Assembly: GCA_904424815.1 (NCBI GenBank)
Contig: CAJGBI010000001.1
Coordinates: 547,010-611,009 of the forward strand
Reading direction: 5' to 3'
Length of the DNA stretch: 64,000 nucleotides
From: Puniceicoccaceae bacterium Marseille-Q1082
GTDB lineage: Bacteria > Verrucomicrobiota > Verrucomicrobiia > Opitutales > Intestinicryptomonadaceae
Position 1 is the first letter of the stretch. Every line of letters starts with the position of its first letter. Of this stretch, positions 39,643-58,566 are shown in pieces. Position numbers and translations under genes: made by a program. Under the pieces are notes generated by a model that made no database searches, was not told the DNA's origin, and was given only the letters and a program-made list of their open reading frames with translations.

Positions 39643-39766
39643 GGGCGCGTGAAAAGGGGGTTGATGCTCCGTTAGGAAAGCCGGCAGGACCGCTCGCGTA
39701 TGTTTAATACGCCACGCGCCCCTGTCGGCTTTCCTATACTCGCCTGAACCCCCTTTTGACGCGCCC
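39643..39766 (+). repeat. 124-bp palindromic repeat, full unit (copy A1)
   Basis: Begins GGGCGCGTGAAAAGGGGGTT and ends in the near-exact complement AACCCCCTTTTGACGCGCCC. Inside, AGGAAAGCCGGCAGG pairs with CCTGTCGGCTTTCCT, and the tip is GCGTAT-GTTTA-ATACGC. The two internal loops keep the same size as in the other copies. It starts 8 nt after the TPR gene stop (39634). It is the same length as the copies at 43489 and 58443. Confidence 0.9.
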
Positions 39767-39802
39767 TTCGGTGTCGTCTTAGTTTAGGGCACTGGTTTAC
39801 TG

Positions 39803-39908
39803 TTGATGCTCCGTTAGGAAAGCCGGCAGGACTGCTCGCGTATGTCAAATACGCCGCGCGCCCCTTCCGGCTTTCCTATACTCGCCTGAACCCCCTTTTG
39901 ACGCGCCC
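39803..39908 (+). repeat. 106-bp partial unit of the palindromic repeat (A2)
   Basis: Copies the unit from TTGATGCTCCGTT to the right arm ACGCGCCC but lacks the left outer arm. A 36-bp spacer (39767-39802, TTCGGTGTCGTC...) joins it to the full unit. The same spacer and partial unit occur at the other two sites. Confidence 0.85.
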
Positions 39909-39966
39909 TTTTAAACTTGGCGAATAAATCCATTAAAAACTCTTAAAACTCTTTCAGAACCATCCG
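39909..39966 (+). repeat. Tail module of the repeat cluster
   Basis: The sequence from TTTTAAACTTGGCGAATAAA to CAGAACCATCCGCC also occurs, inverted, at about 58240-58298. It marks the far part of a composite element and is truncated here. The gap from 39635 to 40075 contains only this cluster and the LysM terminator. Confidence 0.8.
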
Positions 39967-40019
39967 CCGCCGTGCGGGCGCAAATTGGGCAAGACCGGAG
40001 TTGCGCTTAATATCCGCGG

Positions 40020-40052
40020 AAAAAAGCGGGCAGAAGTTCAACTCCCGCCCGC
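40020..40052 (-). terminator. Terminator of the LysM gene
   Basis: On the minus strand GCGGGC (40047-40052) pairs with GCCCGC (40026-40031) around a 15-nt loop and is followed by six T (40020-40025), 23 nt past the stop. Confidence 0.7.
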
Positions 40053-40075
40053 TCTTGCGAAAAGTTTTTCGCCCT

Positions 40076-40672
40076 CTATTTCGGGATTACCACTTTCTGG
40101 CCGATCATGAGGCGCGAGGGGCGCAAGTCGGGGTTCGCCCTTATGAGCGCATCTATGGTCGTCTTGTATTTTATCGCTATTTTTGCGAAAGTGTCGCCGC
40201 TTTGGATTATGTGGATTCCGCCTTCGGCGGCGGTTGCCCTGTTGTCGGATTGCGGCTGGGGGGCTGCGGAGGTCGCCTCCGCGCGCCGTGGAGCCGCCTG
40301 GCGTTTGGCGAGGTCTTCCAGCGCCTTATTGAAGTCGGCTATGGACTTGCGGTTATCGGAAATCATGGAGCTCAGCCGCCTCACGGCGTCGTTCGTCTGC
40401 TTCGCGAGGTTCTCGACGCGGTTGCCGTCGCCGGATTTCAAGTCCTCGAGCTGGAGGGCGAGCGAATCCACCCTGTCGCCGAGCTTCTTTATCTCGAGCG
40501 ACAACGCCGCGGCTTTTTCTATTTTATCGGTCATGTTCGCGGAGACGTCGCCGGATTTTTTCATCGCGAATATTCCGAGAACGAGCGCGACTATGCCGAC
40601 GCCCAGACCCAGCAATCCCATCGCGGGCAGCAGGGCCTGCGACCTATCGGTTTTTATGATTTCTTCTTCCAT
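40076..40672 (-). CDS. Membrane-anchored LysM-domain protein
   Basis: 198 residues. A cytoplasmic start (MEEEIIKTDRSQ) is followed by a single membrane helix at ~15-37 (ALLPAMGLLGLGVGIVALVL), a coiled-coil stretch (~45-120) and a Pro/Ala-rich linker. The C-terminal LysM domain at ~152-198 reads IHIIQSGDTFAKIAIKYKTT, ALIRANPDL and LMIGQKVVIPK. It probably binds peptidoglycan from the inner membrane; no catalytic domain is present. It is transcribed divergently from glnD, 126 nt apart. Confidence 0.88.
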   Translation of the reverse strand: MEEEIIKTDRSQALLPAMGLLGLGVGIVALVLGIFAMKKSGDVSANMTDKIEKAAALSLEIKKLGDRVDSLALQLEDLKSGDGNRVENLAKQTNDAVRRLSSMISDNRKSIADFNKALEDLAKRQAAPRRAEATSAAPQPQSDNRATAAEGGIHIIQSGDTFAKIAIKYKTTIDALIRANPDLRPSRLMIGQKVVIPK

Positions 40673-40798
40673 TTTAGCGCGTTTAAAAAATTTTTGTTTT
40701 TATGCGGCCGGTCGATATTTCTTTCAAATTCTCCGACAATTTGGCAGAATGTTTTCAAAATTTCAATAAGATTTACCTCTGGCTAAATTCCGTTTGCG

Positions 40799-43489
40799 AT
40801 GGGCTGGTTTCAACTTCCGGAAAACGCCGCGCGAAGGTGCGCGGAATTTCTCGCCGGCCGAAAGGACGCCGGCGCGGCGGTCAAAGAGTGCCTGCGCGCC
40901 TCCCGCGCGGAGGCTTTGGACGCGCATTTGCGCGGCGCGCCCGGCGGCGCGGTGTGCGCGGCGATGTCGGCCGCGGTCGACGAGGCCGTAAAATTCCTCT
41001 GGAACAGGTTCCTCGAAAAGCGGCTGCGCAAGGACGGGCGCATAGGCGCCAAGGCGTGCATAGCCGCCATCGGGGGGTACGGGCGTTCGGAGCTCTCTCC
41101 GAACAGCGATATCGACATACTTTTTCTCTACGAGGACGGCGTTGGCGACGGAATAAAAGAGCTCCTCGTGGACGGCGTGATGTATCCGCTCTGGGACACC
41201 GGCGTGAAGCTGGGCCACACGAGCGCGACCGAAAGCGAAATTCTCGGGCGGGCCTCCGAGGACATACTTCTGAAAAACTCCCTTCTCGACGCCCGCCTCG
41301 TCTGCGGCGCCCCCACGCTCTATTCGCGCTTCCGGCGGGTGTTTGACGCCGCTTGCCAATTCACCAAAAAGGAGCACTTTGACAGCCTGATGCGCTTAAA
41401 GCGCGACCGCCACGCCGCATTCAACTGGACCCCGTACATACAGGAGCCCAACATAAAAAACGGAATCGGAGGCCTGCGCGACTTTCAGACGATGCGCTGG
41501 AAGGCTCTGCTGAACTTCGGCTCCCCGAGGATAGAGGCTCTCCTGCGGAGGGGGTTGCTTTCCGCCGTAGAATACAAAGTCTTGCGCCGCGCGTTCGACT
41601 TTTTGCTCAGGGTGCGCAACGACCTCCACTTCCAGACGAACCGCCCGACCGACGTCCTCGACCTCGAAAAGCAGCCGTTGGTCGCCGAGCGCCTCGGGTT
41701 TGCGGGTGCGACGGAGGAGGAGCGAGTCGAGGCTTTTATGCGCGAGGTCTACAAATCTTTCCGTGCGGTCGATACGCTCGCCAAGACCGCCAGAAAACGC
41801 ATGGGGGTGCGCCTGCCGAAAGACGTTTTGGCGACCATGCGCCAGCTGGGGGCGCGCGTTCCGCGCAACCGAAAGTACGAAATCGACGGCTTTTGCGCGT
41901 ACCGCGGCGAAATCAGCGCGGTGCGCAGGGGCGTTTTCAAGCGCAAGCCCGCGCGCATTCTGCGGCTTTTTCAATACTGCCAGGCCTACGGGTGCGCGCC
42001 GAGCGACACCCTTGAAGTCGAGCTCAAAGACGCCAGGGAGTTCATCGACGACGCCTACCGCGCCGACCCCGAGAATAAAAGGAGGTTTCTCTCCATTCTC
42101 CAATTCAGGGGCGGCGTTTTTCCCGCGCTTGAAGTAATGCACTATTGGGGAGTTCTCGGGCGCTTCATTCCGGAATTCATGGACATTACCTGCATGGTTC
42201 AGCGCGAGTTCTACCACCGCTATACGGCGGACATGCACACCCTAAATTGCATCGCCCACCTCGACAAAATCTTTTGCGCGCGCAAGTCCGACGGCCTGTA
42301 TTGGCACTACCACAAGGTTCTCACGGGAATGCGCAACCCGATGCTCGCGTACCTTATCCTCTTTCTGCACGACATCGGCAAGGGCGACGGGATGCGCGGC
42401 CATGCGGAGGTTGGCGCGGAGATAGCCGGCAGGGTTTTGCGGCGGCTCGGCGTTCCGGACGAGGACGCGGACACCGCCGTGCTCATCGTCAAGAACCACC
42501 TCGAAATGGCGCGCTTCTGGCAGTCTCACGACATAGAGGACGAGGGGGAAATCGCGAAGTTCGCGGCTATCGCGGGCGACGAGGAAACCCTGAAATTGCT
42601 CTACATAACCACGTTTTGCGACGCAAGCGGCACAGCCGAGGGCTTTTGGAACTCATACAAGCAGGGCTTGCACGAGAGCCTTTACCGCGAGACGCTCTCA
42701 TATATCCGAAAAGGGGCGGGCGCCGAAAACACGTTTGCTAAAAAACGTTTAAAGGCCCTCGCGGAGCTGAGCGCGCTGCCCGAATTCGAAGGGCGGCGGG
42801 AACTTGTGGAAGAGCACATGCTCTGCATGCCCCCGAGCTATTTTTCCTTCCACAACCAAAGCGACGTCTCTATGCACATAAGGCTCGTGGCGGCGCTGAA
42901 AAGGCGCAAAAATCCCGACTCTCCCGTGTTCGAGTGGATAGACGACCCAAACCGCAGCATAACTCGCCTCTGCGCCGTCTCCAACGACAGGGCGGGCATG
43001 TTTTCGGTTCTCGCGGGGGTTTTGAGCATATCCGGCTTCGACATTCTCGGCTCAAAGGTCCTGACGCGCTCCGACGGCGTGACCATAAACACCTTTTACC
43101 TCACGGGGCTCTCCGGCGGGGTTTCCAACAACATGCGCATACGCGAGCTCTTTTCGCGCCGCGTAGCCTCGGCGCTCGCCGACAACCGCGCGCTCGACGC
43201 GGAGGTCGACGAGATGTTCTACGGCTCTCGGCGGCGCAGGAACGAGTCCGTTTTGTCAGACGTGTTTTTGCGCCGCGAAAGCGGCAAGACGGTTCTCGAA
43301 GTGCGCGGCCGCGACAGGGCTGGGCTGCTGTACAAAATCGCAGGAACCGTGCGCGATTGCGGATACGATATCGTGTTTGCCCGCATCAACACCGAAGCCG
43401 GATGGGCGCGCGACACTTTCCACATTTGCGCGCATCCGCTCGCCGAGACGAAAGCAGAGCTTGTAGAAAGCCTAAAATTCCTCTATTAG
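40799..43489 (+). CDS. glnD: Bifunctional [protein-PII] uridylyltransferase/UMP-removing enzyme
   Basis: 896 residues with the full GlnD layout. Nucleotidyltransferase: IGGYGRSELSPNSDIDILFL (~93-112). HD phosphohydrolase: FLHDIGKGDGMRGH (~520) plus VKNHLEMARFWQSHD. ACT1 starts near 719 (TRLCAVSNDRAGMFSVLAGV) and ACT2 near 832 (LEVRGRDRAGLLYKIAG). It senses glutamine and modifies PII proteins; no glnB is in the window. The end is unusual: the stop TAG is the beginning of the palindromic repeat (TTAGGGCGCG), so the C-terminus is set by the repeat junction. Confidence 0.96.
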   Translation: MGWFQLPENAARRCAEFLAGRKDAGAAVKECLRASRAEALDAHLRGAPGGAVCAAMSAAVDEAVKFLWNRFLEKRLRKDGRIGAKACIAAIGGYGRSELSPNSDIDILFLYEDGVGDGIKELLVDGVMYPLWDTGVKLGHTSATESEILGRASEDILLKNSLLDARLVCGAPTLYSRFRRVFDAACQFTKKEHFDSLMRLKRDRHAAFNWTPYIQEPNIKNGIGGLRDFQTMRWKALLNFGSPRIEALLRRGLLSAVEYKVLRRAFDFLLRVRNDLHFQTNRPTDVLDLEKQPLVAERLGFAGATEEERVEAFMREVYKSFRAVDTLAKTARKRMGVRLPKDVLATMRQLGARVPRNRKYEIDGFCAYRGEISAVRRGVFKRKPARILRLFQYCQAYGCAPSDTLEVELKDAREFIDDAYRADPENKRRFLSILQFRGGVFPALEVMHYWGVLGRFIPEFMDITCMVQREFYHRYTADMHTLNCIAHLDKIFCARKSDGLYWHYHKVLTGMRNPMLAYLILFLHDIGKGDGMRGHAEVGAEIAGRVLRRLGVPDEDADTAVLIVKNHLEMARFWQSHDIEDEGEIAKFAAIAGDEETLKLLYITTFCDASGTAEGFWNSYKQGLHESLYRETLSYIRKGAGAENTFAKKRLKALAELSALPEFEGRRELVEEHMLCMPPSYFSFHNQSDVSMHIRLVAALKRRKNPDSPVFEWIDDPNRSITRLCAVSNDRAGMFSVLAGVLSISGFDILGSKVLTRSDGVTINTFYLTGLSGGVSNNMRIRELFSRRVASALADNRALDAEVDEMFYGSRRRRNESVLSDVFLRRESGKTVLEVRGRDRAGLLYKIAGTVRDCGYDIVFARINTEAGWARDTFHICAHPLAETKAELVESLKFLY

Positions 43490-43612
43490 GGCGCGTGAAA
43501 AGGGGGTTGATGCTCCGTTAGGAAAGCCGGCAGGACCGCTCGCGTATGTCAAATACGCCACGCGCCCCTTCCGGCTTTCCTATACTCGCCTGAACCCCCT
43601 TTTGACGCGCCC
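43489..43612 (+). repeat. 124-bp palindromic repeat, full unit (copy B1)
   Basis: Same outer arms, inner stem and GCGTAT-GTCAA-ATACGC tip as at 39643, exactly 124 bp. Its first G is the last base of the glnD stop codon, in the same orientation relative to the gene as the other copies. Confidence 0.9.
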
Positions 43613-43648
43613 TTTCGTGTCGTCTTCGTTTAGGGTACTGGTTTACCG

Positions 43649-43731
43649 TTGATGCTCCGTTGGGAAAGCCGGCAGGACCGCTCGCGTATGTCAAAAATAC
43701 GCCGCGCGCCCTTTTATTCGCCCGAACTTAG
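43649..43731 (+). repeat. Hybrid partial repeat unit (B2)
   Basis: Starts like the 106-bp unit (TTGATGCTCCGTTGGGAAAG) after the same spacer. After the tip it jumps to the ending CGCCCTTTTATTCGCCCGAACTTA, which elsewhere belongs to a third module (58197-58220, inverted). It looks like a recombination between two units that deleted the material between them. Confidence 0.75.
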
Positions 43732-43769
43732 GAATTAACCCCATTGCAGGCGGATTTGCAGGCGCTTGC

Positions 43770-44801
43770 CTATTTCCCGTTCGGCGCGAATTTTTTTGCC
43801 ATGTTTTCAGCGTAAGGGGAATCTGTAAGCAGGTATTTGCCCAGGAAGGCCTCCAGCGGCGTCTTGCTGTCGGTGAATACGGCAATCTTGAATTTTCCCC
43901 CGTCTTTTAGCAGGTAAGCAAAGTCGGGGCGCGGGGTTTCGCCGTCTTTCGTGCGCAAAAATATCATCGCGTATACGGGGCTTGCGTCCATCGCCTTTAA
44001 GTATTTTTTGCCCCATGAAAAGTAATCCCCCAGCGCCTTTCTGCGCTGCTCTTCGGTCATTGAGCCGAATTGCGCGTCGAAAGCCGCCTTTGTGCGCGGC
44101 GTCAGGAATTTCCCGTATTCGTCGATTTTCCACGAGTAGAACACGTTTTGCGCCGCGCGGTAGAATTTCGAGGCCTCGTGCGAATCCGCGTCGGGCAGTT
44201 CTTCGAGCGACACGAGCGGTCCGTTGGCAAAGTTCAAAAACGGGAGGGATTTTTTCTCGAGCTCGGCGAGGATTTTTGCGTCGGACTCCGTCAGGGGCTT
44301 GACGGCGCCGCGGTTTGTTTCTCGCGATTTCGCGGCTCCGTCCGCCATGACTTGCAGGATCGGGTCGTTGAAGGACGGAAGCCAGGCGTATTTTTCGGAA
44401 TCCCTCTTGAAGACCATAAAATTGACGTTGGGGCGGCCTTTCGGCATGGGCGCGGAGGCGGCGGGAAATACCGCAAAATATTCGCCGATTTTCGCCGAGG
44501 CGAGAAATTTTGACGGGTCGGGACGGGCGATTTTTTTGTACGCGGCGGCGCGGCGGGCTTCGGAGGCGGATAGCCCGAGCGCTTTCGGGTCGGACGCCAG
44601 GGCGGATTTGGCGGCCTCAAAAAGCCCCCTTTCGTCCTCCGGAATTTCCGCGACGACCGCGGCCTTTGATTCTATCGGCGCGGAATCCGCGGACGGAAAC
44701 GATACGGGATAGGCGCGCAGCCGCGCGGTTTCGGCGGCGCAGAGAGCCGCATTTAGCGATATTGCGGCGGCCGCCGCCGGAAGGTATTTTAGGATTTTCA
44801 T
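43770..44801 (-). CDS. Secreted protein of unknown function
   Basis: 343 residues from the ATG at 44801, with a signal peptide (MKILKYLPAAAAAISLNAALCAA). The mature chain is mixed alpha/beta without a motif that I recognise. There is a FMVFKRDSEKYAWLPSFNDP segment (~130) and, near the end, YAMIFLRTKDGETPRPDFAYLLKDGGKFKI, which resembles the short beta-meander of small NTF2-like or lumicin-type tails but is not diagnostic. The gene starts 4 nt after the rlmH stop and is co-transcribed with it. A repeat cluster lies beyond its 3' end. No function can be given. Confidence 0.7.
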   Translation of the reverse strand: MKILKYLPAAAAAISLNAALCAAETARLRAYPVSFPSADSAPIESKAAVVAEIPEDERGLFEAAKSALASDPKALGLSASEARRAAAYKKIARPDPSKFLASAKIGEYFAVFPAASAPMPKGRPNVNFMVFKRDSEKYAWLPSFNDPILQVMADGAAKSRETNRGAVKPLTESDAKILAELEKKSLPFLNFANGPLVSLEELPDADSHEASKFYRAAQNVFYSWKIDEYGKFLTPRTKAAFDAQFGSMTEEQRRKALGDYFSWGKKYLKAMDASPVYAMIFLRTKDGETPRPDFAYLLKDGGKFKIAVFTDSKTPLEAFLGKYLLTDSPYAENMAKKFAPNGK

Positions 44802-44805
44802 AAAT

Positions 44806-45243
44806 TCAGTGGTGGTATCCCGCGTTAGCGGATATGGTTTTTGCCCTGTAAATTTGTTCGAGAAGCACGGCGCGCGCAAATTCGTGCGTGAAAGTCATCG
44901 GCGACATCGACATTACGACGTCCGCCCTCGCGCGCACCCTGTCCGACAGGCCGTAGGGGCCGCCTATGGCGAACGCGCTGCCGCCGCGCTGCAAGTCGGC
45001 CTCAAGCGCGCGGGAAAATTCGCGCGAGCCCATTAGGATTCCCTCTTCGCTCATCGCGTAGACCCGCCCCTTGAAATTCGCGAGCTTCGCGAGTATTGCG
45101 TCGGCTTCCGCCTCCGCGCCTGCGTCCCTGACTTCGGCGATCTCGACGCCGCCGTAGCGCGAGAGCCTTTTGGCGTATTCCGCGCAGAGGGATTTGAGTT
45201 CGGCGCATTTCATTTTGCCGACCGCTATGATTTTGGTAGCCAT
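44806..45243 (-). CDS. rlmH: 23S rRNA pseudouridine-1915 N3-methyltransferase
   Basis: 145 residues (family about 155). A SPOUT-fold enzyme acting on assembled 70S ribosomes. Features: KIIAVGKMKCAEL at the start, RVYAMSEEGILMGSREFSRA, the AdoMet knot loop AFAIGGPYGLSDRVR (~92), MSMSPMTFTHEFARAVLLEQ and the invariant C-terminal end NAGYHH. It is the first gene of a two-gene unit with the secreted protein and is divergent from pyrD. Confidence 0.95.
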   Translation of the reverse strand: MATKIIAVGKMKCAELKSLCAEYAKRLSRYGGVEIAEVRDAGAEAEADAILAKLANFKGRVYAMSEEGILMGSREFSRALEADLQRGGSAFAIGGPYGLSDRVRARADVVMSMSPMTFTHEFARAVLLEQIYRAKTISANAGYHH

Positions 45244-45407
45244 TTTATTCGCCTTGCCTCCGCGCGGCTGGCGCGGGCGGGGGTGTTCCCCTTAAATATA
45301 AGGGCGGCGCGCGGCGCGCGGTCAAGCATTATCGCGGGATTTGCGGGACGTTTTGTCTTGCCGGAGCGCGCGGAACGGGTTTAAAGTCCGGCAAGTTTTT
45401 TCAAGAA

Positions 45408-46481
45408 ATGGACCCCCTATTCGAAAACATAATACGCCCCGCGCTGTTTACGCAGGACCCCGAAACGATGCACGAACTTGCCCTCAAAGCAATGACGATA
45501 GTCGGGGCGGTTCCGCCGCTCAGGGCGGCGATGGAGTATTTCAACCTCATCAAGACGCCGAAGCCGATAAAGATTTTCGGGCTCGAATTTCCCAACAGGG
45601 TGGGGCTCGCCGCCGGATTCGACAAAGACGCCTATGCGTGGAGGGGGGCGGCCGCGATGGGTTTCGGGCACGTCGAGATAGGCACGGTTTCGATGCTCAA
45701 ACAGACCGGCAATCCCCGCCCGAGAATTTTCAGGTACCCGTCGAGCGAGGCTATCGTAAACGGCTGCGGGTTTCCCAACGACGGCGCGGAGCAGATAGCC
45801 GCGAGGCTCTCGAAAGTTTTGGGCAAGCATAGGGACATAACGAAAAAGTGCCCGCTTGGAATCAACATAGGCAAGTCAAAGATAACCCCCCTCGAAGAGG
45901 CGGCGGCGGACTACCTTTTCAGCTTCAGCGCCCTCGCGGATTTCGCGGACTTTTTCACGATAAACGTGAGCAGCCCCAACACTCCCGAGCTGCGCAGGCT
46001 CCAGGGCAGGGACTTCCTCCCGAACCTCCTGGCTGCCATTTCCAAGGCGAACGAGGACAGGGCGAAAAAGCTGGGGGTGGCGCGCATTCCGATAATATTG
46101 AAAATCGCCCCGGACCTTTCGTTTGAGGAAATCGACGCGATACTCTCGATTCTCGAAGAGCTGAATCTCGACGGGATATGCGCCACCAACACCACGGTAT
46201 CGAGGCCGGCCGGCCACCCCGAGTACGAAAAGACCGGCGGGCTGAGCGGCAAGCCGCTCTTTGAAAAGTCGCTTGAAATCGTCAGGTACATATCCAAGGC
46301 GACCGACGGGAAGCTGCCGATTATCGGAGTCGGCGGAATCACCGACGTGCGGCGCGCGGGCGAGATGATGAACGCGGGCGCGAGCCTCGTGCAGATATAT
46401 TCGGGCATGATTTACCGCGGGCCGTTCTTCGCGCGCTCGATAGCCAACTCCCTGATTTGGCGCGACTCCGAATGGGTTTAG
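45408..46481 (+). CDS. pyrD: Dihydroorotate dehydrogenase, class 2 (quinone)
   Basis: 357 residues. It oxidises dihydroorotate with FMN and passes electrons to quinone. The N-terminal helices (LFENIIRPALFTQDPETMHE) form the membrane-facing domain found only in class 2. Core: NRVGLAAGFDKDA, HVEIGTVSMLKQTGNPRPRI, VNGCGFPNDG, FTINVSSPNTPELRRLQ with the catalytic Ser region, PIILKIAPDLS, CATNTTVSRP and GVGGITDVR. It stands alone in front of efp with a 133-nt gap. A longer N-terminal extension is absent. Confidence 0.96.
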   Translation: MDPLFENIIRPALFTQDPETMHELALKAMTIVGAVPPLRAAMEYFNLIKTPKPIKIFGLEFPNRVGLAAGFDKDAYAWRGAAAMGFGHVEIGTVSMLKQTGNPRPRIFRYPSSEAIVNGCGFPNDGAEQIAARLSKVLGKHRDITKKCPLGINIGKSKITPLEEAAADYLFSFSALADFADFFTINVSSPNTPELRRLQGRDFLPNLLAAISKANEDRAKKLGVARIPIILKIAPDLSFEEIDAILSILEELNLDGICATNTTVSRPAGHPEYEKTGGLSGKPLFEKSLEIVRYISKATDGKLPIIGVGGITDVRRAGEMMNAGASLVQIYSGMIYRGPFFARSIANSLIWRDSEWV

Positions 46482-46614
46482 CCGCCGCGCCGCTCCGAAA
46501 AAATTGTTGACCGCCCATGCCCAAACCCTAACCTTTCACACTCCTTTATCGCAAGGGCGCTCCGCGCGGCTTCCGGCGGGGCGAAACTCCAAAACAGGCA
46601 AAACACAAAACGCA

Positions 46615-47172
46615 ATGGCATCACCAACCGACATCAGAAAAGGCAGAGTTATAATGTACAACGGCGTCCCGCACGCCGTGATGAGCATGCTTCACCGCAC
46701 GCAGGGCAGGCAGGCGGGCTTCGTCCAGACTGTTCTCAGGAACCTCTCAAACAACTCCTCCACTGCGGTGAAATTCCGCTCCACCGATTCTGTGGAATTC
46801 TGCCACACGACCAACAAGCCGTTTGAATTTTCCTACGTTGACGGCGACCACTTCCATTTCATCGACCCCGAAACTTACGACGACATCGTTCTGATGCAGG
46901 ACACCATCGGCGACGACGTGAAGTGGCTTGTGGAGGGAGTGCAGTACAACATTCTCTTTGTCGACGGCAACCCCGTTTCGATTGAGCTGCCAAACAACAT
47001 GGAGATAAAGGTCGCCGAGGCCGCCGAGGGGCTGAGGGGCGACACGTCGTCGGCGCCGACGAAGCCCGTGACGCTCGCCAACGGCGTCGTAATCCAGGTT
47101 CCGCTCTTCATAAAACAGGGCGACGTCGTCAAGGTTCGCACGGAGGACAACACCTACATCAGCAGGGCGTAG
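46615..47172 (+). CDS. efp: Translation elongation factor P
   Basis: 185 residues from the ATG at 46615; the frame extends to 46504 without support. Three beta-barrel domains relieve ribosome stalling at polyproline. The start is typical (MASPTDIRKGRVIMYNG). The tip loop, where E. coli has Lys34 in PGKGQAF, reads TQGRQAGF and puts Arg32 at the tip, the residue that EarP rhamnosylates in other bacteria. Domain III ends in VPLFIKQGDVVKVRTED and YISRA. No epmA, epmB or earP gene is in the window. argA follows after 48 nt. Confidence 0.95.
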   Translation: MASPTDIRKGRVIMYNGVPHAVMSMLHRTQGRQAGFVQTVLRNLSNNSSTAVKFRSTDSVEFCHTTNKPFEFSYVDGDHFHFIDPETYDDIVLMQDTIGDDVKWLVEGVQYNILFVDGNPVSIELPNNMEIKVAEAAEGLRGDTSSAPTKPVTLANGVVIQVPLFIKQGDVVKVRTEDNTYISRA

Positions 47173-47220
47173 CCTTGCGCGCATTCACGCGCCCGAAAAC
47201 CCTTAAAGAATTGCCGCCAG

Positions 47221-48640: not shown

Positions 48641-48654
48641 AAAAAGGAGAATAT

Positions 48655-50425: not shown

Positions 50426-50435
50426 GGTATCTGTT

Positions 50436-51836
50436 ATGAAAAATATCCCGAATATCAAAAAATTGCGCTTGTCGCCCGCCTTTGCCATTGCCTTTGCCGC
50501 GGCCGCCATTTCTTCCCTATGTTGCGCCGCTTCCGCTTCCGCCCAGGAGTCCTATTATTGGCGCGGAGGAAACTGGGGCGGTGATTTTTCTACAAACGAC
50601 GCCTGCTGGTATGCAGATCCCGAGGGAACCGAACTTCGCGAATCTCCCCCGTCGTCCACGTCCGACCTGATTTTCGACGCCAACAATACCGGCATGCCGC
50701 ATGTGCGCCTCGACCAGAACAGAGGCGGGCTTACTGTCAATTCGGTGACGGCGACCGTCGCAACGGAAATCAATATGACGAATTCCATGACCGTCCTAAA
50801 CGATTGGTCGAGCTACGTTTCCGCTGACACAAAATATTCCCCGGCATACGACAGCGGCATGGCTGCGGGAAAATCGCTTAGAATAGTCGCAGATACCGTA
50901 AACTTTCTGACCGTCGGCGGCGACATGACGCTTTCGACGGACAAATATTTTACCTCGCGCTTCAGGCTCGGAAATACCAACAGCCAGTCGGCGTTCACGC
51001 TGACGGTTGGAGGGGCGTTGAACTTTGTCAAGAACGGTTCGGACACCGTCGGCTACCATGCCTTTGACATGATTGCTTCCGACAGCAATACCGGAACTGC
51101 GTTTTCGCTAAATATCGGCGGGTTGAGTTCGAGCGGCAAGGCGGTTTATATGACGACCGCAAAGAACGGCTCAATAAGCGTAAATTTCAACAATAACCCC
51201 TCCGGCGCGTTTGCGGGCGGCTCGTTCGAGGGGGTGTTTGCGGCGGATAGCGGAGTGAGTTCGCAGCTCAACATAATGATGAACGGCAGCGGCAGGCAGG
51301 AGATGACCATCTACAAGGCTTCCAACGGCTCGCTCCACGGCTTTGAGAATGACCTGGACGGCAAGGCGGACATGTCGATAGGCAATCTCACGGTAAACAA
51401 CGGCGAATTTGTAATGAATACGGAAGTCGCGGTCGAGAACTTGTATCTCTCCGGCGGGAGGCTGAAATTTTCCTCAGCCGAAAAAGTCGGGGGCATGACG
51501 ATAGACGGCGGGACGCTCCTGTTCGGCGGGACAATAAATGTGGGGGATTTGACTGTGGCGGCGTATTCGGCGGACGTGGTGTTTTCCGCCGAGGATTTGG
51601 CCGCGCACGAGATAACTGTGTTTGAGTTCGACTATTTGACAGACGATTTTGACGCCAATAGCGTGTTTTCCGCGTACAACGAGTTCGGGCAGGAGCTCGG
51701 GGGGAGGTTTGAGCTGACAGGGGAGATGGGCGGCTCCGGAAGCCTTGTGTACGTGGTGCCCGAACCCGCGGCGGTTGCGGCGTTCATCGGGGCGGCCGCG
51801 CTGATGTTCGCCCTCCGCCGCGGCGGGCGGCGATAG
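50436..51836 (+). CDS. Secreted PEP-CTERM sorting-signal protein (paralogue 3)
   Basis: 466 residues. A long, positively charged signal peptide (KKLRLSPAFAIAFAAAAISS) precedes a beta-rich body with the same kind of short strand repeats (NLTVNNGEFVMNTEVAVENL, GMTIDGGTLLFGGTINVGD). YYWRGGNWGGDF near the mature N-terminus resembles YYIWAGAEAANEE of the protein at 26263. Exosortase signal VPEPAAVAAFIGAAALMFAL with an RRGGRR tail. It shares the body type but is the most diverged of the three. It probably encodes a surface or extracellular-matrix protein. Confidence 0.88.
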   Translation: MKNIPNIKKLRLSPAFAIAFAAAAISSLCCAASASAQESYYWRGGNWGGDFSTNDACWYADPEGTELRESPPSSTSDLIFDANNTGMPHVRLDQNRGGLTVNSVTATVATEINMTNSMTVLNDWSSYVSADTKYSPAYDSGMAAGKSLRIVADTVNFLTVGGDMTLSTDKYFTSRFRLGNTNSQSAFTLTVGGALNFVKNGSDTVGYHAFDMIASDSNTGTAFSLNIGGLSSSGKAVYMTTAKNGSISVNFNNNPSGAFAGGSFEGVFAADSGVSSQLNIMMNGSGRQEMTIYKASNGSLHGFENDLDGKADMSIGNLTVNNGEFVMNTEVAVENLYLSGGRLKFSSAEKVGGMTIDGGTLLFGGTINVGDLTVAAYSADVVFSAEDLAAHEITVFEFDYLTDDFDANSVFSAYNEFGQELGGRFELTGEMGGSGSLVYVVPEPAAVAAFIGAAALMFALRRGGRR

Positions 51837-51858
51837 CGGCGTTCGGTTGATTGCCCGC

Positions 51859-51897
51859 AAAAAAATCCCCGCGCCGGCATCCGCGGGGATTTTTTTT
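51859..51897. terminator. Bidirectional terminator between convergent genes
   Basis: A perfect 12-bp stem (AAAATCCCCGCG with CGCGGGGATTTT, 51862-51873 and 51882-51893) has A and T runs on either side, so it can stop transcripts from the PEP-CTERM gene (plus) and pilT (minus). Confidence 0.88.
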
Positions 51898-51930
51898 GCC
51901 TTTTGGCGGCGGGGCGCGCCCGATTCGCTG

Positions 51931-53040
51931 TTATCTCAAATTTTCGAGCTCCCGGGCGTCTATGTGGGGGCTGGCGCGCATTTTGGCGAGCAAGTCCGCC
52001 CTGAACGGAGATTTCGAGAGCGCTTCGGCCGCTTCGACCGTTCCGCTTTCGACGAGCGCGAGGAGAGAGTCGTCCATGGTGAACATCCCCTCGCGCTTCC
52101 CCATCTGCATTGTGCTGTATATTTGCGGCACTTTCTGTTCGCGTATCAGGTTTCTGACCGCTGAATTTGCGACCAGCACCTCAAACGCCGCGATGAGTCC
52201 GCCCGCTTTCTTTACGAGCAGAGTTTGGGTGAGCACGCCTATGAGGTTTTCCGAAATCATCATCCTTATCTGCGGCTGTTCCGCCGCGTCGAACTGCCCT
52301 ATGAGCCTGTCGATCGTCGAAACCGCCGTGCGGGTGTGCAGGGAGGCTATCACAAGATGCCCCGTCTCCGAGAGCTCTATTGCGGTTCGCGTGGTCTCGA
52401 TGTCGCGCATTTCGCCGATTACGACGATGTCGGGGTTTTCGCGCACGCTCGAGCGCAGGGCGGAGTAGAAGTCCGGCGTGTGGACGCCGACCTCGCGCTG
52501 GGTAAACAGGGACTCTCGGCTTCTTATCACGTGCTCTATCGGGTCTTCAATTGTGAGCACATGCGCCTTGCGCGTGGAATTTATTATGTCCAGCAGCGCC
52601 GCTATGGTCGTCGTCTTGCCGGAGCCGTTGGCGCCGGTGACGAGAAACAGCCCGCTCTTGCGGTTGCATACGTCGGTGACGGAAAACGGAAGCCCGATTT
52701 CGCTCGCGCTCATGCGGCTGGGGGGAATCATTCGCAGGGCGGCGCCGAGCCCGTTTTGGCTTCTGTAAATATTGGCCCTGAGCCTCATTCCGGATATGCA
52801 GGAAAACGCGCAGTCCACGTCTTCGCCCCTCTCGTATTTTTCGAGCATTATCTTTTTTTCGTCGGGCGAAAGGTTGTCGAAAATCTGGGCGACAAGCGCC
52901 TCTATGTCGGCGGAGCCGCATTCGGCAAGTTCGATGAGCGCGTTGTCTATGCGTATTCTCGGGCGCATGGCGCCGCGCAGGTGTATGTCTGTTGCGTTCC
53001 TGCGGTAGGCTGTTTCTATTATCGAGTCAAGTTCGTTCAT
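51931..53040 (-). CDS. pilT: PilT-type twitching-motility ATPase
   Basis: 369 residues from the ATG at 53040. GspE/PilT secretion ATPase that drives pilus retraction. N-terminal PAS-like domain with ATDIHLRGAMRPRIRID. Walker A is VTGANGSGKTTT, with Asn where many PilT have Pro-Thr. Asp box TIEDPIEHVIRSRESLF, Walker B DIVVIGEMRD, and His box TGHLVIASLHTRTAVSTIDR. The usual C-terminal AIRNLIRE-type element reads SAVRNLIREQKVPQI. The start overlaps the rsmD stop by 4 nt. No pilin or other pil gene lies nearby. Confidence 0.94.
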   Translation of the reverse strand: MNELDSIIETAYRRNATDIHLRGAMRPRIRIDNALIELAECGSADIEALVAQIFDNLSPDEKKIMLEKYERGEDVDCAFSCISGMRLRANIYRSQNGLGAALRMIPPSRMSASEIGLPFSVTDVCNRKSGLFLVTGANGSGKTTTIAALLDIINSTRKAHVLTIEDPIEHVIRSRESLFTQREVGVHTPDFYSALRSSVRENPDIVVIGEMRDIETTRTAIELSETGHLVIASLHTRTAVSTIDRLIGQFDAAEQPQIRMMISENLIGVLTQTLLVKKAGGLIAAFEVLVANSAVRNLIREQKVPQIYSTMQMGKREGMFTMDDSLLALVESGTVEAAEALSKSPFRADLLAKMRASPHIDARELENLR

Positions 53041-53636
53041 GTTGCCTTTATTTTGAATATTATCTGCGACGGCTTTCCCGCCGATTTCTTGCCGAGCCTC
53101 CGCAACTGCTCGAACTCGAACGCGAACGGCTTGGGGGCGCTTTCGAGCGAAAAGTCTGCGGGGGCTTCGAGGACGAAAAACATGTTTTCGCGGCAGATTT
53201 TGCAAAACATCGAAAATATTTTTACGGCCGTTTTCGGGTCGCAAAGCATGGAGTAGGGAGGGTCGGCGAAGACTATGTCGTAGCGCGCGCTCTCAAATAG
53301 CGACGCGCTCTTCACGCAGTCGCACGGCACTATCCGCGCGGAGAAGTCCGCCCCCGCGCCTGCCGCCGCCTTCTTTACGCGCTCTATGTTGCGGCGCAGC
53401 GCGGCGAGCGCCAGCCGGTCGGTCTCGGCGAAAGTCACGCTGGCCGCCCCGCGGCTTGCCGCCTCCAATCCGTACGAGCCGGTCCCGGCGAAGAGGTCGA
53501 GAACCGCCGCGCCCTCCACCGCGCAGCCGAGGGACGAGAAAATCGCCTGGCGCGCCGCGTCTGTCGCGGGGCGCACGGCGTCTGTCCGCGGGACGTCGAG
53601 CAATATTCCTCTTGCCAAGCCCGATGTGATCCTCAT
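53037..53636 (-). CDS. rsmD: 16S rRNA (guanine-966-N2)-methyltransferase
   Basis: 199 residues. It methylates G966 of 16S rRNA in the assembled small subunit. Motifs: MRITSGLARGILLDVP at the start, RPATDAARQAIFSSLG, the AdoMet loop VLDLFAGTGSYGLEAASRGA and the catalytic DPPY in YDIVFADPPYSML. It overlaps pilT by 4 nt. Its ATG is only 12 nt from the divergent LpxR-like start, so its promoter probably lies inside that coding sequence. Confidence 0.95.
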   Translation of the reverse strand: MRITSGLARGILLDVPRTDAVRPATDAARQAIFSSLGCAVEGAAVLDLFAGTGSYGLEAASRGAASVTFAETDRLALAALRRNIERVKKAAAGAGADFSARIVPCDCVKSASLFESARYDIVFADPPYSMLCDPKTAVKIFSMFCKICRENMFFVLEAPADFSLESAPKPFAFEFEQLRRLGKKSAGKPSQIIFKIKAT

Positions 53637-53648
53637 GATTTTGCGAGT

Positions 53649-54668
53649 ATGGCATCCCGTCGCGCTTTGTCAAATATTCTGCCCGCCGTTTTTTTAGCGG
53701 CTTCGCTCTCGGCGCAGCCCGCCGCGCAGCTCTCCGGAGGCGGAACCCCCGAATGGAGGGCGGTTTCGTTCACCGTTGAAAACGACTACGGGTTTTCAGA
53801 CAGGTATTACACCAACGGACTGAAACTTTCGTACACCCAAAGCGGCAGGGATTTCTGGACGAGCCGCCTGCAATTCGCCCTCCTCGACCTCTTCGCCCCC
53901 GATGGCGCGCAGGCGTACGAGAGCGTGTCGGTCGGGCAGATGATGTGCGTGTCCTCGGACATAAACTGGCCGAACCCTCCCGAGCGGGACAGGCCGTACG
54001 CCGGATGGCTCTACGCGGGCTTTGGGGCGCACGTCGCCACGCGCGACACTCTCGATTCCTTTACCGTAAACCTCGGAGTTGTCGGGCCTATTTCGCTCGC
54101 CGAGGACGCCCAAAAGCTCTACCACAGCATCATAGGCGCCGATTGGCCGATGGGCTGGCACGACCAGATAAAAAACGAGCCCGGAATCGTGCTCTCTTAC
54201 CGCCACTCCCAAAGGATAGCGCGCGGGGAAATCGAGTCTTTGGATTTCGACGCCGTGGCGTCCGCCGCGCTCGATCTGGGCAATGTCATTACGCAGGGCG
54301 AGGCGAGGGCGTTTTTGCGGTTCGGCAAAAACCTTCCGCACAATTTCGAGCCCAACAGAATCGACTATTCCTCGGGCAACGACGTGGCGTGGATTCCGCC
54401 GGAAGGGCTTCCCGACTGGCATTTATACGGTTTTGTCGGCGGGGCCGCGCGGTTTGTGGGCTACGACATCACGCTTAACGGAAACACGTTCGCGGACAGC
54501 CGCAGCGTTGTCCCCAAGTGGCTCGTCGGGGAATTTATGGCGGGCGTTTCGGCGAGGTACGAGTCTGTGAGCTTCGACCTGACCTACACGCTGAGAACCG
54601 CGGAGTTCAACCATCAGGAACACCCCGTGCACATGTTCTGGGCGGCGACCCTTAAATATTCGTTCTAA
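53649..54668 (+). CDS. LpxR-like lipid A deacylase (DUF2219) outer-membrane protein
   Basis: 339 residues. Signal peptide SRRALSNILPAVFLAASLSAQ, then a beta-barrel ending in an aromatic residue (LKYSF), as outer-membrane proteins do. DUF2219/LpxR motifs: FTVENDYGFSDRYYTNGLKL (Asn, Asp and Ser/Thr of the active site), RDRPYAGWLYAG, GWHDQIKNEPG with the likely catalytic His, and SYRHSQ. In Salmonella, LpxR removes the 3'-acyloxyacyl group of lipid A. The close match suggests lipid A trimming here. It begins 12 nt from the divergent rsmD start. Confidence 0.88.
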   Translation: MASRRALSNILPAVFLAASLSAQPAAQLSGGGTPEWRAVSFTVENDYGFSDRYYTNGLKLSYTQSGRDFWTSRLQFALLDLFAPDGAQAYESVSVGQMMCVSSDINWPNPPERDRPYAGWLYAGFGAHVATRDTLDSFTVNLGVVGPISLAEDAQKLYHSIIGADWPMGWHDQIKNEPGIVLSYRHSQRIARGEIESLDFDAVASAALDLGNVITQGEARAFLRFGKNLPHNFEPNRIDYSSGNDVAWIPPEGLPDWHLYGFVGGAARFVGYDITLNGNTFADSRSVVPKWLVGEFMAGVSARYESVSFDLTYTLRTAEFNHQEHPVHMFWAATLKYSF

Positions 54669-54692
54669 GAATTCCGGAGCGCGCGCGGGCTT

Positions 54693-57600
54693 TTACTCCG
54701 CCGCGAGCTCGAAGAAAGCCGACGGCCCGTTTTTGAGTTTGGACGTGTCTATCGACGCCCTTATATATTCCGCGTCCGATCGCGAGCTTAGCTCCTGTAC
54801 GCGCGCGCCGTTCATTCCGAGGGCGTAGAGTTTGAAGGCCCGGGCGTTTTTGTTTTTGAGCCTGAACGAGAATTTGCCCGTCTTGTAGAGGACGGGCGGG
54901 GTCCCCATTGACATAAGCCCGCGCATTGAGTCGTCCACAAACTCCATGCCGGTGTTGAGGGCGTTCGTGGAGTATGCCACCACTATGCGCTTCGACTCCG
55001 AAAGCGGCTTGCCGTCCACGCTCACGGCGGCGACGCACCCGCGCTCGCCCATGCGGGTGACCGCGAAGTCGGAGAGCTCGCATTTGCCCTTTGCCTCTGC
55101 GCACATGCCCTGCAATCTCGGGGTGTCGACCGTCATGAAGTTTTTATTGGAGTCGAGGAAGAGTTCGCCCGTCGCGCTCTCGAAAATTCCCTTCTTTGCG
55201 TCCGTCCTGTTAGATTCCGGAATCAGCCCGCGCTTTTTGAACTGCCCGACGACCGCGTCGGTGTCGAATCCGTCCTTGGAGTCCAGGACGACCGAATAGC
55301 CCGGGTACGTCACTATCGCAGAGCCCCCCGAGGACTTCACCACGATTTCGTCTTCTCCGGCAGGCGCGGAGGAGTCCGGCAGCAGCGAGAGCTTTGCCAC
55401 GAGCGCGAGCTTCGACTGCCCCGAATTCATTCCGTAGCCTATGAACAATTTTTCGATCGCTTCGGCCGTGGAGTAATCCACGCGCACCGACGGCTTGGCT
55501 TCGGACACGTCCCTGCGCAGCAGCATGTGGGCGGCGAGAAATTCCGACACCTTGTTCACGGGGTCGTGAGCGCATCCGAACGGGCGTATCATCGCCGGCG
55601 TCGGGCATGTTGAAACCGCCTGCGCGTGCACGGTCAGCGCGCCGTACCCCTGCATGGCGGCGTACGCGGCGATGGAAAACGGCTGCTCGTAGCGGTATTT
55701 GTTCCAAAATACGTGCCCGTATTCGGTGATTAGCATAGGCTTTCTCCAAATGGCGGATCCGGCGATTCCCCTGAACACGCCGTCCGCGTCGGAGAGCGAG
55801 CTGTTCTGCGCCATCCTGGTCACCCCGCCGAGCGTCGGCGACGGATGGGCGTGGTATGAGTGCATAGTGACTATCGGCATGTTCTGCCTCACCGAGGCGT
55901 AGGAGAAATTTTTTATCATGTCGAAATTCACGCACAGCCCCTTGTATCCGATTTCCCTGAGGCTCTTTTCAAACCACTTCCACATTTCGGTTGTCCTTTC
56001 GAGCTTAAAGGCTTCTACGTCGCGCGCGGCGGCCTTCGCGCTTGGCTGTTTGCCGTATGAAAACACTTTCACTTCGTCCCAGGACTTCGCCGACGCCCCC
56101 CACGCCTCGTTGTATTTTTCGAGCGAGCCGCCGTAGCGCCTTTTGAGGAAATCCAGCCAGTGCGGCTTCATAACCTCCGGTTTTTGGTTGCGGAGGAATC
56201 CGAATTCCTGCTCGTTTTTGCCGTTGACTATCGCAAGCACAGGATCGTCCACGAGGCGCGTGCCTGTATACGGATTCACGTGCGTAAGGAGCTTTTTTAC
56301 CCCTTCAAACCAGTTCTTTCGCGCGCTTTCCTTGAAGAAGAGGTCGAAATTGTAGTCCCTTCCGGAATCATCGGGCCACCACGTGTTGCCGAGCTCAAAC
56401 CCGTAGCGGCTGCACATGGCGTCGAGGTTCAGGTATATGCCGTTTTTTTTCAGGCAGTATATGTAGTAGTCTATGCGCTCGAGGAGCTTTTCGTTGAATT
56501 CCAGCGGCTCTTTCGCCCCTCCCATCAGCGCGAAGTCGAAGTAGTGGAAGCGCACCATGTTGTACCCCTGTATGCGCAGCTGCCTTACGTATTCCTCCGT
56601 GCTTTCTTTCGTGGCGGTGAGGGTGTTGTAGGTGTGCCCCTGGTCGGCCACGGTCTGGAAGGCGACGGGTACCCCGGGATTGTCCTCGAGCTCTAAATGC
56701 CCGTCTTTCGAGGCGACCACGCGCGCCTTTACCTCCCCGATGTTCCAGAGGGCGGAGCAGTCGAGGGCGGAGCCCTCTATGACGCCGCAGTCCGGCAGAA
56801 CCGGCATGGCCCGCCATTCTTTATTTTCGGCGGTGATGAATTTGCATTCGGAAGGGAAGGGGAACTTCTCTTTCGAGAGGGTCGCCGCCGCGACAATCCA
56901 CGGGATTTTGGATTTTCGGAATTCCACCGCCGCCACCTTTCCGAATCCCTCGGGGATTTTGAGCCGCGTGGAATATAGGCCGTTGGATTTTCTATATCCC
57001 TTGGAGGCGAGCCACGCCGCGCCCACCGCCGCGTTTTTGAGCTCCTTTTGGACGTTTTCCCAGCCCGCGACGTCGACGCCGCCCGCGAGCCTGAATATGT
57101 GCTCCTTTCCGTCCTCGCCGAATATTGCAATTTCCCCGACCTCGCCTCTCCCGGGCGTTTCGAGGGCGTTGAGGACGTAGAGGTACTTTGCTTCCTGCGG
57201 CACAGAGAGCGGGATTTTTGCCGATTCCGCCCCCATTTTCGGGCTTCCCGCGGGTTTTATGAGCAGGGCGGATTTCCCGCCGTTGGACTCGGGCGAGAGC
57301 GCCATGTACGGGACGTTTGCGAATGTTGCCGTGTGCTTGTAGTTGAATTTGGAGGCGTCCTCATCCGCGCCGAGGTCGAACCATCCGCCCTTTCCGTCGC
57401 CGGCGGTTTCGTCGGCATATCCGACGTTGGCGGCTTTTCTCATATCGAGCGAGGAAGACTTCTTTCCCACTTTCACGTTCCTGAAATGGAGCTTTCCGAA
57501 AGACTGTTCGAAGCCGATGTTGAGGCGCGCGCCCGTAGCGTCGTGCGGGACGCGGACCAGAGTTTTTATTTTTTGCCAGTCGAAATCTCCGGTCGGCATC

Positions 57601-57962
57601 TGCGGGCCGCCGTACACATTGCCGGAGGGGGCGTTGACGACGAGCATGAATTTTGCGCCGTTATAGTATTTGGGCCCCGGCGCGACATTCTCGCCCATGG
57701 CCTCCCCGCTCACTTCGAGGACGCCTCCGCGCGCTTTTGATATGTCAACCGGCAGCGACAATCCGCCGAAGCCGATGCGCTCCGGGACTTCGATTTTCAG
57801 CGAGCCGCTCTCGCCCCTTTTACCCTTTTCAAAGGACAGCTTTGCGTCGGAATGGTATTTTGCGACGGCTTCCGCGGAGTCGAAAGGCTCGTAAAATAAG
57901 GTTTCGCCCGCAAATAGCGCGGAATATGCTATGGACAAGATGGAAGCCAGTATGCGTTTCAT
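54693..57962 (-). CDS. Large secreted glycoside hydrolase of the GH-A clan (GH5/GH39-like)
   Basis: 1089 residues from the ATG at 57962 (signal peptide MKRILASILSIAYSALFAG). The N-terminal ~400 residues hold beta-sandwich modules of carbohydrate-binding type. A TIM barrel follows: QGYNMVRFHYFDFALMGG, YLNLDAMCSRYGFE, the acid/base site VNGKNEQEFG (Glu near 582) and the probable nucleophile in MLITEYGHVFW (~746). The C-terminal ~250 residues are beta-rich (SSGGSAIVTYPGYSVVLDS). The family number cannot be fixed by eye. It converges on the LpxR-like gene, 24 nt apart. Confidence 0.82.
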   Translation of the reverse strand: MKRILASILSIAYSALFAGETLFYEPFDSAEAVAKYHSDAKLSFEKGKRGESGSLKIEVPERIGFGGLSLPVDISKARGGVLEVSGEAMGENVAPGPKYYNGAKFMLVVNAPSGNVYGGPQMPTGDFDWQKIKTLVRVPHDATGARLNIGFEQSFGKLHFRNVKVGKKSSSLDMRKAANVGYADETAGDGKGGWFDLGADEDASKFNYKHTATFANVPYMALSPESNGGKSALLIKPAGSPKMGAESAKIPLSVPQEAKYLYVLNALETPGRGEVGEIAIFGEDGKEHIFRLAGGVDVAGWENVQKELKNAAVGAAWLASKGYRKSNGLYSTRLKIPEGFGKVAAVEFRKSKIPWIVAAATLSKEKFPFPSECKFITAENKEWRAMPVLPDCGVIEGSALDCSALWNIGEVKARVVASKDGHLELEDNPGVPVAFQTVADQGHTYNTLTATKESTEEYVRQLRIQGYNMVRFHYFDFALMGGAKEPLEFNEKLLERIDYYIYCLKKNGIYLNLDAMCSRYGFELGNTWWPDDSGRDYNFDLFFKESARKNWFEGVKKLLTHVNPYTGTRLVDDPVLAIVNGKNEQEFGFLRNQKPEVMKPHWLDFLKRRYGGSLEKYNEAWGASAKSWDEVKVFSYGKQPSAKAAARDVEAFKLERTTEMWKWFEKSLREIGYKGLCVNFDMIKNFSYASVRQNMPIVTMHSYHAHPSPTLGGVTRMAQNSSLSDADGVFRGIAGSAIWRKPMLITEYGHVFWNKYRYEQPFSIAAYAAMQGYGALTVHAQAVSTCPTPAMIRPFGCAHDPVNKVSEFLAAHMLLRRDVSEAKPSVRVDYSTAEAIEKLFIGYGMNSGQSKLALVAKLSLLPDSSAPAGEDEIVVKSSGGSAIVTYPGYSVVLDSKDGFDTDAVVGQFKKRGLIPESNRTDAKKGIFESATGELFLDSNKNFMTVDTPRLQGMCAEAKGKCELSDFAVTRMGERGCVAAVSVDGKPLSESKRIVVAYSTNALNTGMEFVDDSMRGLMSMGTPPVLYKTGKFSFRLKNKNARAFKLYALGMNGARVQELSSRSDAEYIRASIDTSKLKNGPSAFFELAAE

Positions 57963-58064
57963 AAAAGTTGCCGTGTTAAAGTTTGAAAATACAACTTCCG
58001 CCCCGGCTTTCAAGAATTTTGATTAAGGTGGCGCGGTGGCGGCGCAAGGCGCGCTTCCATAAGA

Positions 58065-58201
58065 AACTTAGCCCTTGCGGCGATAGGCAAAGCCGATGCG
58101 CCTATCCCGCCTTGCCGGCAATATCGTTTTTTCCATTTCCGAAGGCGGAAATAGCCAATCCCCTACCAATTGCCCCTTGCTCTCGGATTTTAGGCTAAGT
58201 T
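58065..58201. repeat. Segment bounded by 9-bp inverted repeats next to the repeat cluster
   Basis: AACTTAGCC (58065-58073) and GGCTAAGTT (58193-58201) are exact inverted copies bracketing 119 bp, which also contains a GATAGGC/GCCTATC hairpin (58082-58106). It lies between the glycosidase start and the repeat modules in the 57963-58575 gap and has no coding content. Confidence 0.5.
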
Positions 58202-58298
58202 CGGGCGAATAAAAGGGGCGCACGGCGTATTTGACATACGCGGATGGTTCTGAAAGAGTTTTAAGAGTTTTTAATGGATTTATTCGCCAAGTTTAAAA
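58202..58298 (-). repeat. Tail and third module of the repeat cluster (C3)
   Basis: On the minus strand, TTTTAAACTTGGCGAATAAA...AACCATCCGCG is followed by GTATGTCAAATACGCC and CCCCTTTTATTCGCCCGAA. The first part equals the tail at 39909-39966, and the second equals the end of the hybrid at 43649-43731. This site therefore shows the most complete form of the composite element. Confidence 0.75.
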
Positions 58299-58404
58299 GG
58301 GCGCGTCAAAAGGGGGTTCAGGCGAGTATAGGAAAGCCGGTAGGGGCGCGCGGCGTATTAAACATACGCGAGCGGTTCTGGCAGCTTTCCCAACGGAGTA
58401 TCAG
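58299..58404 (-). repeat. 106-bp partial unit of the palindromic repeat (C2)
   Basis: Inverted copy of the 39803-39908 unit, the same 106-bp length, with several substitutions. One outer arm is again missing, and it is joined to the full unit by a related ~38-bp spacer (58405-58442). Confidence 0.85.
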
Positions 58405-58442
58405 CGGTAAACCGTACCCTAAAAAACTAAGGCGACACGAAA

Positions 58443-58566
58443 GGGCGCGTCAAAAGGGGGTTCAGGCGAGTATAGGAAAGCCGGCAGGGGCGCGTGGCGT
58501 ATTTGGCATACGCGAGCGGTCCTGCCGGCTTTCCTAACGGAGCATCAACCCCCTTTTCACGCGCCC
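58443..58566 (-). repeat. 124-bp palindromic repeat, full unit (copy C1)
   Basis: Reverse orientation of the units at 39643 and 43489, same 124-bp length. Read on the minus strand it starts 9 nt after the stop of the M24 peptidase gene. Here the inner stem CCGGCAGG/CCTGCCGG is fully paired, whereas copy A1 has a single mismatch and B1 more. Confidence 0.9.

Follow-up and report, generated by a model that had tools for sequence, protein, structure and literature searches.

Modular palindromic repeats at gene 3′ ends, in one orientation, in a family of Verrucomicrobiota

Results

The DNA analysed here, referred to as the window, is a stretch of 64,000 nucleotides (nt) from contig CAJGBI010000001.1 (positions 547,010 to 611,009) of Puniceicoccaceae bacterium Marseille-Q1082. 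It carries three arrays of palindromic repeats, each of which begins with a unit of exactly 124 nt that lies at the end of a gene and in the same orientation as that gene (Table 1). These units belong to a wider family of repeats, whose amplification and placement at gene ends are close to certain. A preliminary description, made from the letters alone, had reported the three units behind unrelated genes, with a single folded plan and with the same spacer and further units after them. The units were indeed present at those positions and, when unit 2 was used as query against its own genome, unit 3 was 98% and unit 1 was 97% identical to it over 124 nt; the spacer recurred in all three arrays, each time with a second unit behind it. 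Pfam confirmed GlnD and Peptidase_M24 as products of two of the host genes; the TPR match of the third was weak and below the cut-off.

RNA folding gave -84.6 kcal/mol for unit 1 (z -12.8) and -80.6 kcal/mol for unit 2 (z -11.0), with 0/200 shuffles as low in either case, and both units folded into one common plan. In unit 3, the two arms (58442-58493 and 58516-58567) show 81% ungapped complementarity. Unit 1 starts 8 nt past the stop codon TGA of its gene and unit 3 starts 9 nt past the stop codon TAA of the M24 gene, and unit 2 overlaps the glnD stop codon TAG by a single base, its G, in line with the placement first described. Ahead of GGGCGCG, TGATTCGCTTA is common to unit 1 and the copy at C1:614585, which lies outside the window, and their host genes differ; the TGA within this shared stretch is the stop codon. 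Because the two copies share it, the left end of the element probably lies further out than the 124-nt unit, and the stop codon itself would be its start.

The three units are one subfamily of the wider family. A DNA search of their own genome (G000; 2.70 Mb in 3 contigs) gave 41 matches, with the full 124-nt unit at five places; elsewhere only about the inner 78 nt matched, framed by a different outer palindrome. A covariance model (R1), built from 28 copies and used with a cut-off of E ≤ 0.01, gave 77 matches in this genome, counting antisense readings of the same palindromes; among 19 genomes of the bacterial family, 8 were matched (77, 31, 24, 8, 5, 2, 1 and 1 times). One of the 19 (G010) gave 0 for housekeeping queries too, so its zeros here and below are uninformative. 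Copy number ranges from 0 to 77 within this one bacterial family, and near-identical copies lie beside unrelated genes. In an order-wide sample, searched with stricter filters, matches occurred in 8 of 273 genomes, seven of which are members of this family. The eighth, G023, belongs to another family, and the core of its units retains GTTGATGCTGCGT...CCTGAAC.

Two patterns had no match in viral contigs, and window 43489-43770 had none in plasmids. An exact-pattern scan of a named genome collection gave 9 matches, from unrelated groups by title and at about chance level by rough arithmetic, and Rfam gave 10 matches at E ≤ 1 for window 39000-59500, all below the gathering score. In G003 (L103, L257), the single unit is followed by another kind of gene-end repeat (GACGGGCACCGGC...GGTTGCACAATTATAC), which is also present behind guaA.

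The units are built in layers. Passing inward, there is an outer stem; in one type, the box pair GTGAAA/TTTGAC; a further stem; then the box pair GATGCTCCGTT / ATACTCGCCTGA or GAATAGCTCCGTT / ATACTCGCTCTTC, followed by a stem, about 16 bp long and variable between copies; and finally a short tip enclosed by an innermost box pair (GACCGCTC / CACGCGCCC or CACTGGTC / CTCCCACC). The boxes in the loops are constant, whereas the stems are rewritten from copy to copy. Eight hand-picked units of about 128-132 nt, from six genomes, folded into nearly one plan (z -8.2 to -11.6), and the outer arms paired end to end, i.e., terminal inverted repeats are present. In alignment A2, 97.7% of cells were paired and both sides changed in 21 of 27 pairs; the paired fraction and the covariation score were reached by no shuffle, and slid structures scored far lower. 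The measure of further pair types was not above the shuffles (476/500 were as high), as expected when whole stems are replaced. One left arm was found with at least five different inner cores.

Arrays extend to the right of the first copies. At two loci, Tandem Repeats Finder (TRF) reported periods of 170 nt (4.0 copies) and 172 nt (4.9 copies), and a hairpin with a T-run and the right arm CCAAAATCATTGCGCCAAATC recur in the right-hand arrays; the arrays of the window are of another type and were unflagged by TRF. Among right arms of G000, those at L036, L117 and L045 carry, between CCAAAA and CATTGCGCC, a further long palindromic insert ending GCTTTCGTTTT, so that repeats are nested in repeats.

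To relate the copies to genes, open frames were scored by codon use and the nearest stop codon was measured; the 131 non-overlapping copies reduced to 112 first copies, 108 of them having 60 nt or more upstream. For 48 of the 52 first copies in G000, the stop codon of a scored same-strand gene lay within -30 to +40 nt, whereas only 5.0% of positions-with-strand in the window qualify (binomial P 7e-58, assuming independent copies). The figures elsewhere were 10/19 (G008), 12/23 (G018), 6/7 (G017) and 3/4 (G015) and, in the genomes with a single copy, 1/1 (G012), 0/1 (G003) and 0/1 (G013); the copy in G003 lies 8 nt past a stop codon whose frame scored low. The rule is thus tight in G000 and looser in other genomes; in G008 and G018, as judged by eye, the first copy is often preceded by other repeat modules. 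A convergent stop codon equally near the right end was found for 0 of 108 copies, to which the rightward extension of the arrays contributes. Model search and mapping, both suggested in the preliminary description, thus revealed many copies, in one polarity and at gene ends, rather than three copies only or a random scatter. Two units lie behind tRNA genes, about 8 nt from tRNA-Gly in G018 (L163) and about 38 nt from tRNA-Arg in G008 (L144); translation as such cannot, therefore, be a requirement.

Placement was most precise for the commonest type, whose left arm GATTTGGCGAATGCTTTTGG occurred at 46 places with up to 3 mismatches, the reversed control giving none. With the longest frame, the stop codon started at -1 relative to the arm in 21 cases, at +24 in 8, at -3 in 5, at +4 in 3, and at -2 and -4 in one each (39/46). 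Choosing frames by coding score placed three more arms at -1, including C3:234, where the frame is short and weakly scored; in total, the arm overlaps or abuts the stop codon at 42 of 46 places. One of the remaining four was at -17, another (C1:1158417) lies behind an older T-run hairpin, and two (C2:367655 and C1:1221942) have no assigned stop codon. Often the element supplies the stop codon of the host gene. At the -1 places the T comes from the gene and the GA from the element, while at the +24 places the protein is extended by DLANAFGE or a variant. Among the 46, TTTGAC is found at the three +4 places only, and there it gives TGA in that frame.

We compared 13 genes, hand-chosen for recognizable C-termini, with those of relatives. 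Ten were named through NCBIfam matches of pieces and two (glnD and M24) through Pfam; the names fabG and, below, ftsK, ahcY and the LysM-like gene are presumed. For genes with a nearly constant C-terminus (gdhA, fba, rplS, guaA, metY and nifJ), the arm starts at the stop codon of the relatives, and in glnD, M24 and thrS, which carry the window type of unit, it lies within a few codons of it. The C-terminal tails of hemB, hisF and coaD vary among relatives, and fabG had one relative only at 60% or more. R1 matched 2 of 117 stretches fetched from relatives (a few of which repeat one place or are incomplete), i.e., rplS of G018 and nifJ of G012. Judged from these stretches, most of the insertions compared are missing from relatives; the nifJ insertion may be shared by descent. 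Since the relatives' genes end normally without the element, the units are amplified insertions at gene ends. When 97 upstream proteins were compared, an element was found at the same gene end in two genomes for rplS, ftsK, the LysM-like gene, nifJ and ahcY, leaving out one 33% paralogue pair; about 1.4 pairs are expected by rough arithmetic. The surplus over this figure points to descent, preferred sites or function.

A structure maintained in the sense RNA should tolerate G.T pairs better than A.C pairs. Within 20 clusters of near-identical units (72 copies), we counted 26 G.T variants, 26 A.C variants and 56 others; double changes that kept pairing numbered 27, compared with a shuffled mean of 12.1 and a maximum of 17 over 60 shuffles. 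Arms that match without a preference for G.T fit correction of the arms at the DNA level or a DNA hairpin. An RNA wobble signature is absent, although the sample is small and young, so that weak selection on RNA is still compatible with it. An apparent antisense-RNA signature (A.C 66, G.T 12 after collapsing) was rejected as such: it was lost when only near-identical clusters were counted (26 to 26), and we therefore ascribe the strand asymmetry to fixed mismatches in the constant boxes.

Six-T runs were found inside, or no more than 250 nt after, 86 of the 112 first copies in a count made without a control run (G000 36/52, G018 25/25, G008 12/20, G017 7/8, G015 3/4, and 1/1 each in G012, G003 and G013). 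The arrays may well end transcripts. In Escherichia coli, a terminator located immediately at a stop codon underwent nearly complete repression (PMC4824070). Given that the first hairpin directly adjoins the stop codon, termination is more likely to occur further along the array.

The features of the three arrays are listed in Table 1. Past array 3 there is a further repeated palindromic stretch (window 58083-58171, minus strand), pieces of which occur again near C1:614585 (L003) and in L024.

Table 1. Repeat arrays and host genes in the window
Feature	Position (nt)	Strand	Basis
Gene before array 1 (TPR-like, weak)	37991..39634	+	open frame and Pfam; stop TGA 39632-39634
Unit 1, full 124-nt palindrome	39643..39766	+	sequence, genome search, folding
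Spacer common to arrays 1, 2 and 3	39767..39801	+	sequence comparison
Second unit of array 1, 107 nt, without outermost left arm	39802..39908	+	genome search, C1:586811-586917
Tail of array 1, also in array 3	39909..39967	+	repeat pair I1
glnD, stop TAG 43487-43489	40799..43489	+	Pfam GlnD_UR_UTase
Unit 2, full 124-nt palindrome	43489..43612	+	sequence, genome search, folding
Second unit of array 2, truncated after tip	43648..43714	+	genome search, C1:590657-590723
Tail of array 3, with third tip hairpin	58213..58298	-	repeat pairs I1, I10, I11
Second unit of array 3	58299..58403	-	genome search, C1:605308-605412
Unit 3, full 124-nt palindrome	58443..58566	-	sequence, genome search
M24 peptidase gene before array 3	58576..60378	-	Pfam Peptidase_M24

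Discussion

We propose that the units belong to a family of palindromic repeats, modular, non-autonomous and specific to this lineage, which multiplies inside genomes, and that its copies come to lie at gene 3′ ends in one polarity. A trans-acting factor would move or copy the element through a hairpin or cruciform form of its DNA; the constant unpaired boxes would be what it recognizes, leaving the stems free to change while the arms match. Copies at gene ends may be tolerated in that they bring a stop codon and, often, T-run hairpins. We give this statement as a whole, from the repeat family and its amplification to mobilization in trans and tolerance, a probability of about 0.6. We favor it because there are many copies, in numbers that differ widely between genomes, with covarying stems, constant boxes, a fixed placement and polarity, and empty sites in relatives, and because near-identical copies lie at unrelated genes, arms match without a G.T preference, and cores are exchanged under one left arm. 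The copies, empty sites, polarity and placement also lend good support both to the earlier view that the arrangement is more regular than chance and to the mobile element, non-autonomous and strict in its choice of site, suggested at that stage, although movement itself was not observed.

Several results weigh against this proposal. No mobility enzyme emerged from the four families tested. Y1_Tnp (PF01797) gave 0 matches in the own genome, the one genome searched, compared with 5/14 in control rings, and IS110 and TnpB-type zinc ribbon domains were each found in 0 of the 19 genomes of the bacterial family. RVT_1 occurred in one of the 19 only, G018, with two domains (L244 and L245), and the distribution of RVT_1, TnpB-type and IS110 domains does not follow that of the copies. 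A target duplication at the right end was not found by eye in the masked arrays of 12 loci, where right ends cannot be delimited. Finally, there are gene ends at which more than one genome has an element, which function or descent would explain equally well.

One candidate for a full element was rejected. It was a region of 855 bp, 94% identical, behind two arrays (L036, at about 334 kb of C2, and L117, at about 382 kb of C1), but its frames look like paralogous protein genes. These frames end in EPAIYAAVAGALSLALAAARRRK, which we take to be PEP-CTERM-like.

A more specific form of the proposal is that the machinery of the mobile DNA element recognizes the gene 3′ end as such, i.e., a stop codon or the end of an RNA gene, whatever the sequence. 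Insertion would be one-way and within a few nucleotides, with the element's own stop codon replacing the old one and the array coming to lie before, or instead of, the old terminator. We regard this as a tentative possibility; to our knowledge, no mobile element targets gene ends independently of target sequence.

The units could instead be functional RNA 3′-end elements (terminators, mRNA stabilizers or hairpins read with the terminating ribosome) that are maintained by selection, with copies homogenized by gene conversion. Strict polarity behind genes, the two copies behind tRNA genes, the frequency of six-T runs (every first copy in G018, again without a control), the strong covariation and the gene ends common to two genomes would all suit such elements. 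We nevertheless consider this rather unlikely: G.T and A.C variants are equal in number, the same genes lack the element in most relatives, and a terminator at the stop codon would, by analogy with E. coli, be almost fully repressed (PMC4824070). The preliminary description had raised an RNA 3′-end element as one reading; the pair-variant test gives no sign that RNA is the reason for the structure, and the part of the idea that survives, through the six-T runs, is that transcripts may well end in the arrays. A protein-binding array, also raised in that description, is compatible with the present results.

Could an ordinary miniature inverted-repeat transposable element (MITE) have inserted at random, with selection alone clearing all copies except those behind genes? 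Terminator-like insertions are expected to be tolerated mainly there, and the pneumococcal SPRITE repeats are enriched near gene 3′ ends (PMC3049150). However, selection should permit any position between the stop codon and the next gene, in both orientations, which fits poorly with 42 of 46 arms at the stop codon and with the lack of convergent stops, and we find this account improbable. Still less credible is a REP/REPIN system whose Y1 (RAYT) transposase has been lost or lies outside the assembly. REPs do occur near the 3′ ends of open reading frames (ORFs), and GTAG-REP termini often provide a TAG stop codon (PMC3733652), but, besides the lack of Y1_Tnp in the own genome, the present units are about 130 nt rather than 20-40 nt, and the left ends, inspected by eye in 36 type-A copies and the window copies, are TGATTTGG or TGATTCG and not GTAG/CGTC. 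Sites recombined as folded single strands, like integron attC sites, with which the units would share a hairpin with variable stems, constant unpaired bases and a position behind the stop codon in gene orientation, are very unlikely, as the hosts are scattered housekeeping genes rather than cassettes and the R-box pattern was not seen by eye.

In kind, the family is closest to REP- or MITE-like palindromic interspersed repeats, yet it is longer, nested, polar and codon-precise, and we assign it to no named family. REP, BIME and REPIN sequences with RAYT are likewise repeated palindromes mostly near ORF 3′ ends (PMC3733652, PMC2817692), but REPs are short and have a GTAG/CGTC tag and a Y1 transposase, whereas the present family is nested, shows no such tag by eye, and has one polarity and codon-level precision. 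The ERIC (IRU, RU-1) repeats, compared by description, are imperfect palindromes of similar length (127 bp) that are co-transcribed with their neighbors, with orientation mattering for RNA effects; they are described for enterobacteria, with terminal inverted repeats and target site duplications, and the available part of the source reports no placement at stop codons (PMC2229807). Pneumococcal BOX elements are also modular, with variable inner modules, and SPRITE repeats are terminator-like and close to gene 3′ ends (PMC3049150), but the present family unites nesting, arm exchange and stop-codon placement. In Neisseria and the Pasteurellaceae, repeated complementary uptake sequences behind genes form terminators, but these are of 9-11 nt and generally number at least 1,000 per genome (PMC1852404), compared with tens of long units here. 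In the parts of the open-access literature covered, we found no repeat family with codon-level placement, the nearest being the GTAG-REP termini (PMC3733652).

Interspersed palindromes are usually described as loosely located in intergenic space. The present family is codon-precise and of one polarity, and recurs, with very different stems, in a number of species, while its constant loops resemble a recognition signature. Either mobile elements can locate the end of a gene with no target sequence to guide them, or a hairpin directly abutting the stop codon is under stronger selection than expected. The family also provides a natural set of stop codon replacements for which relatives have the empty sites.

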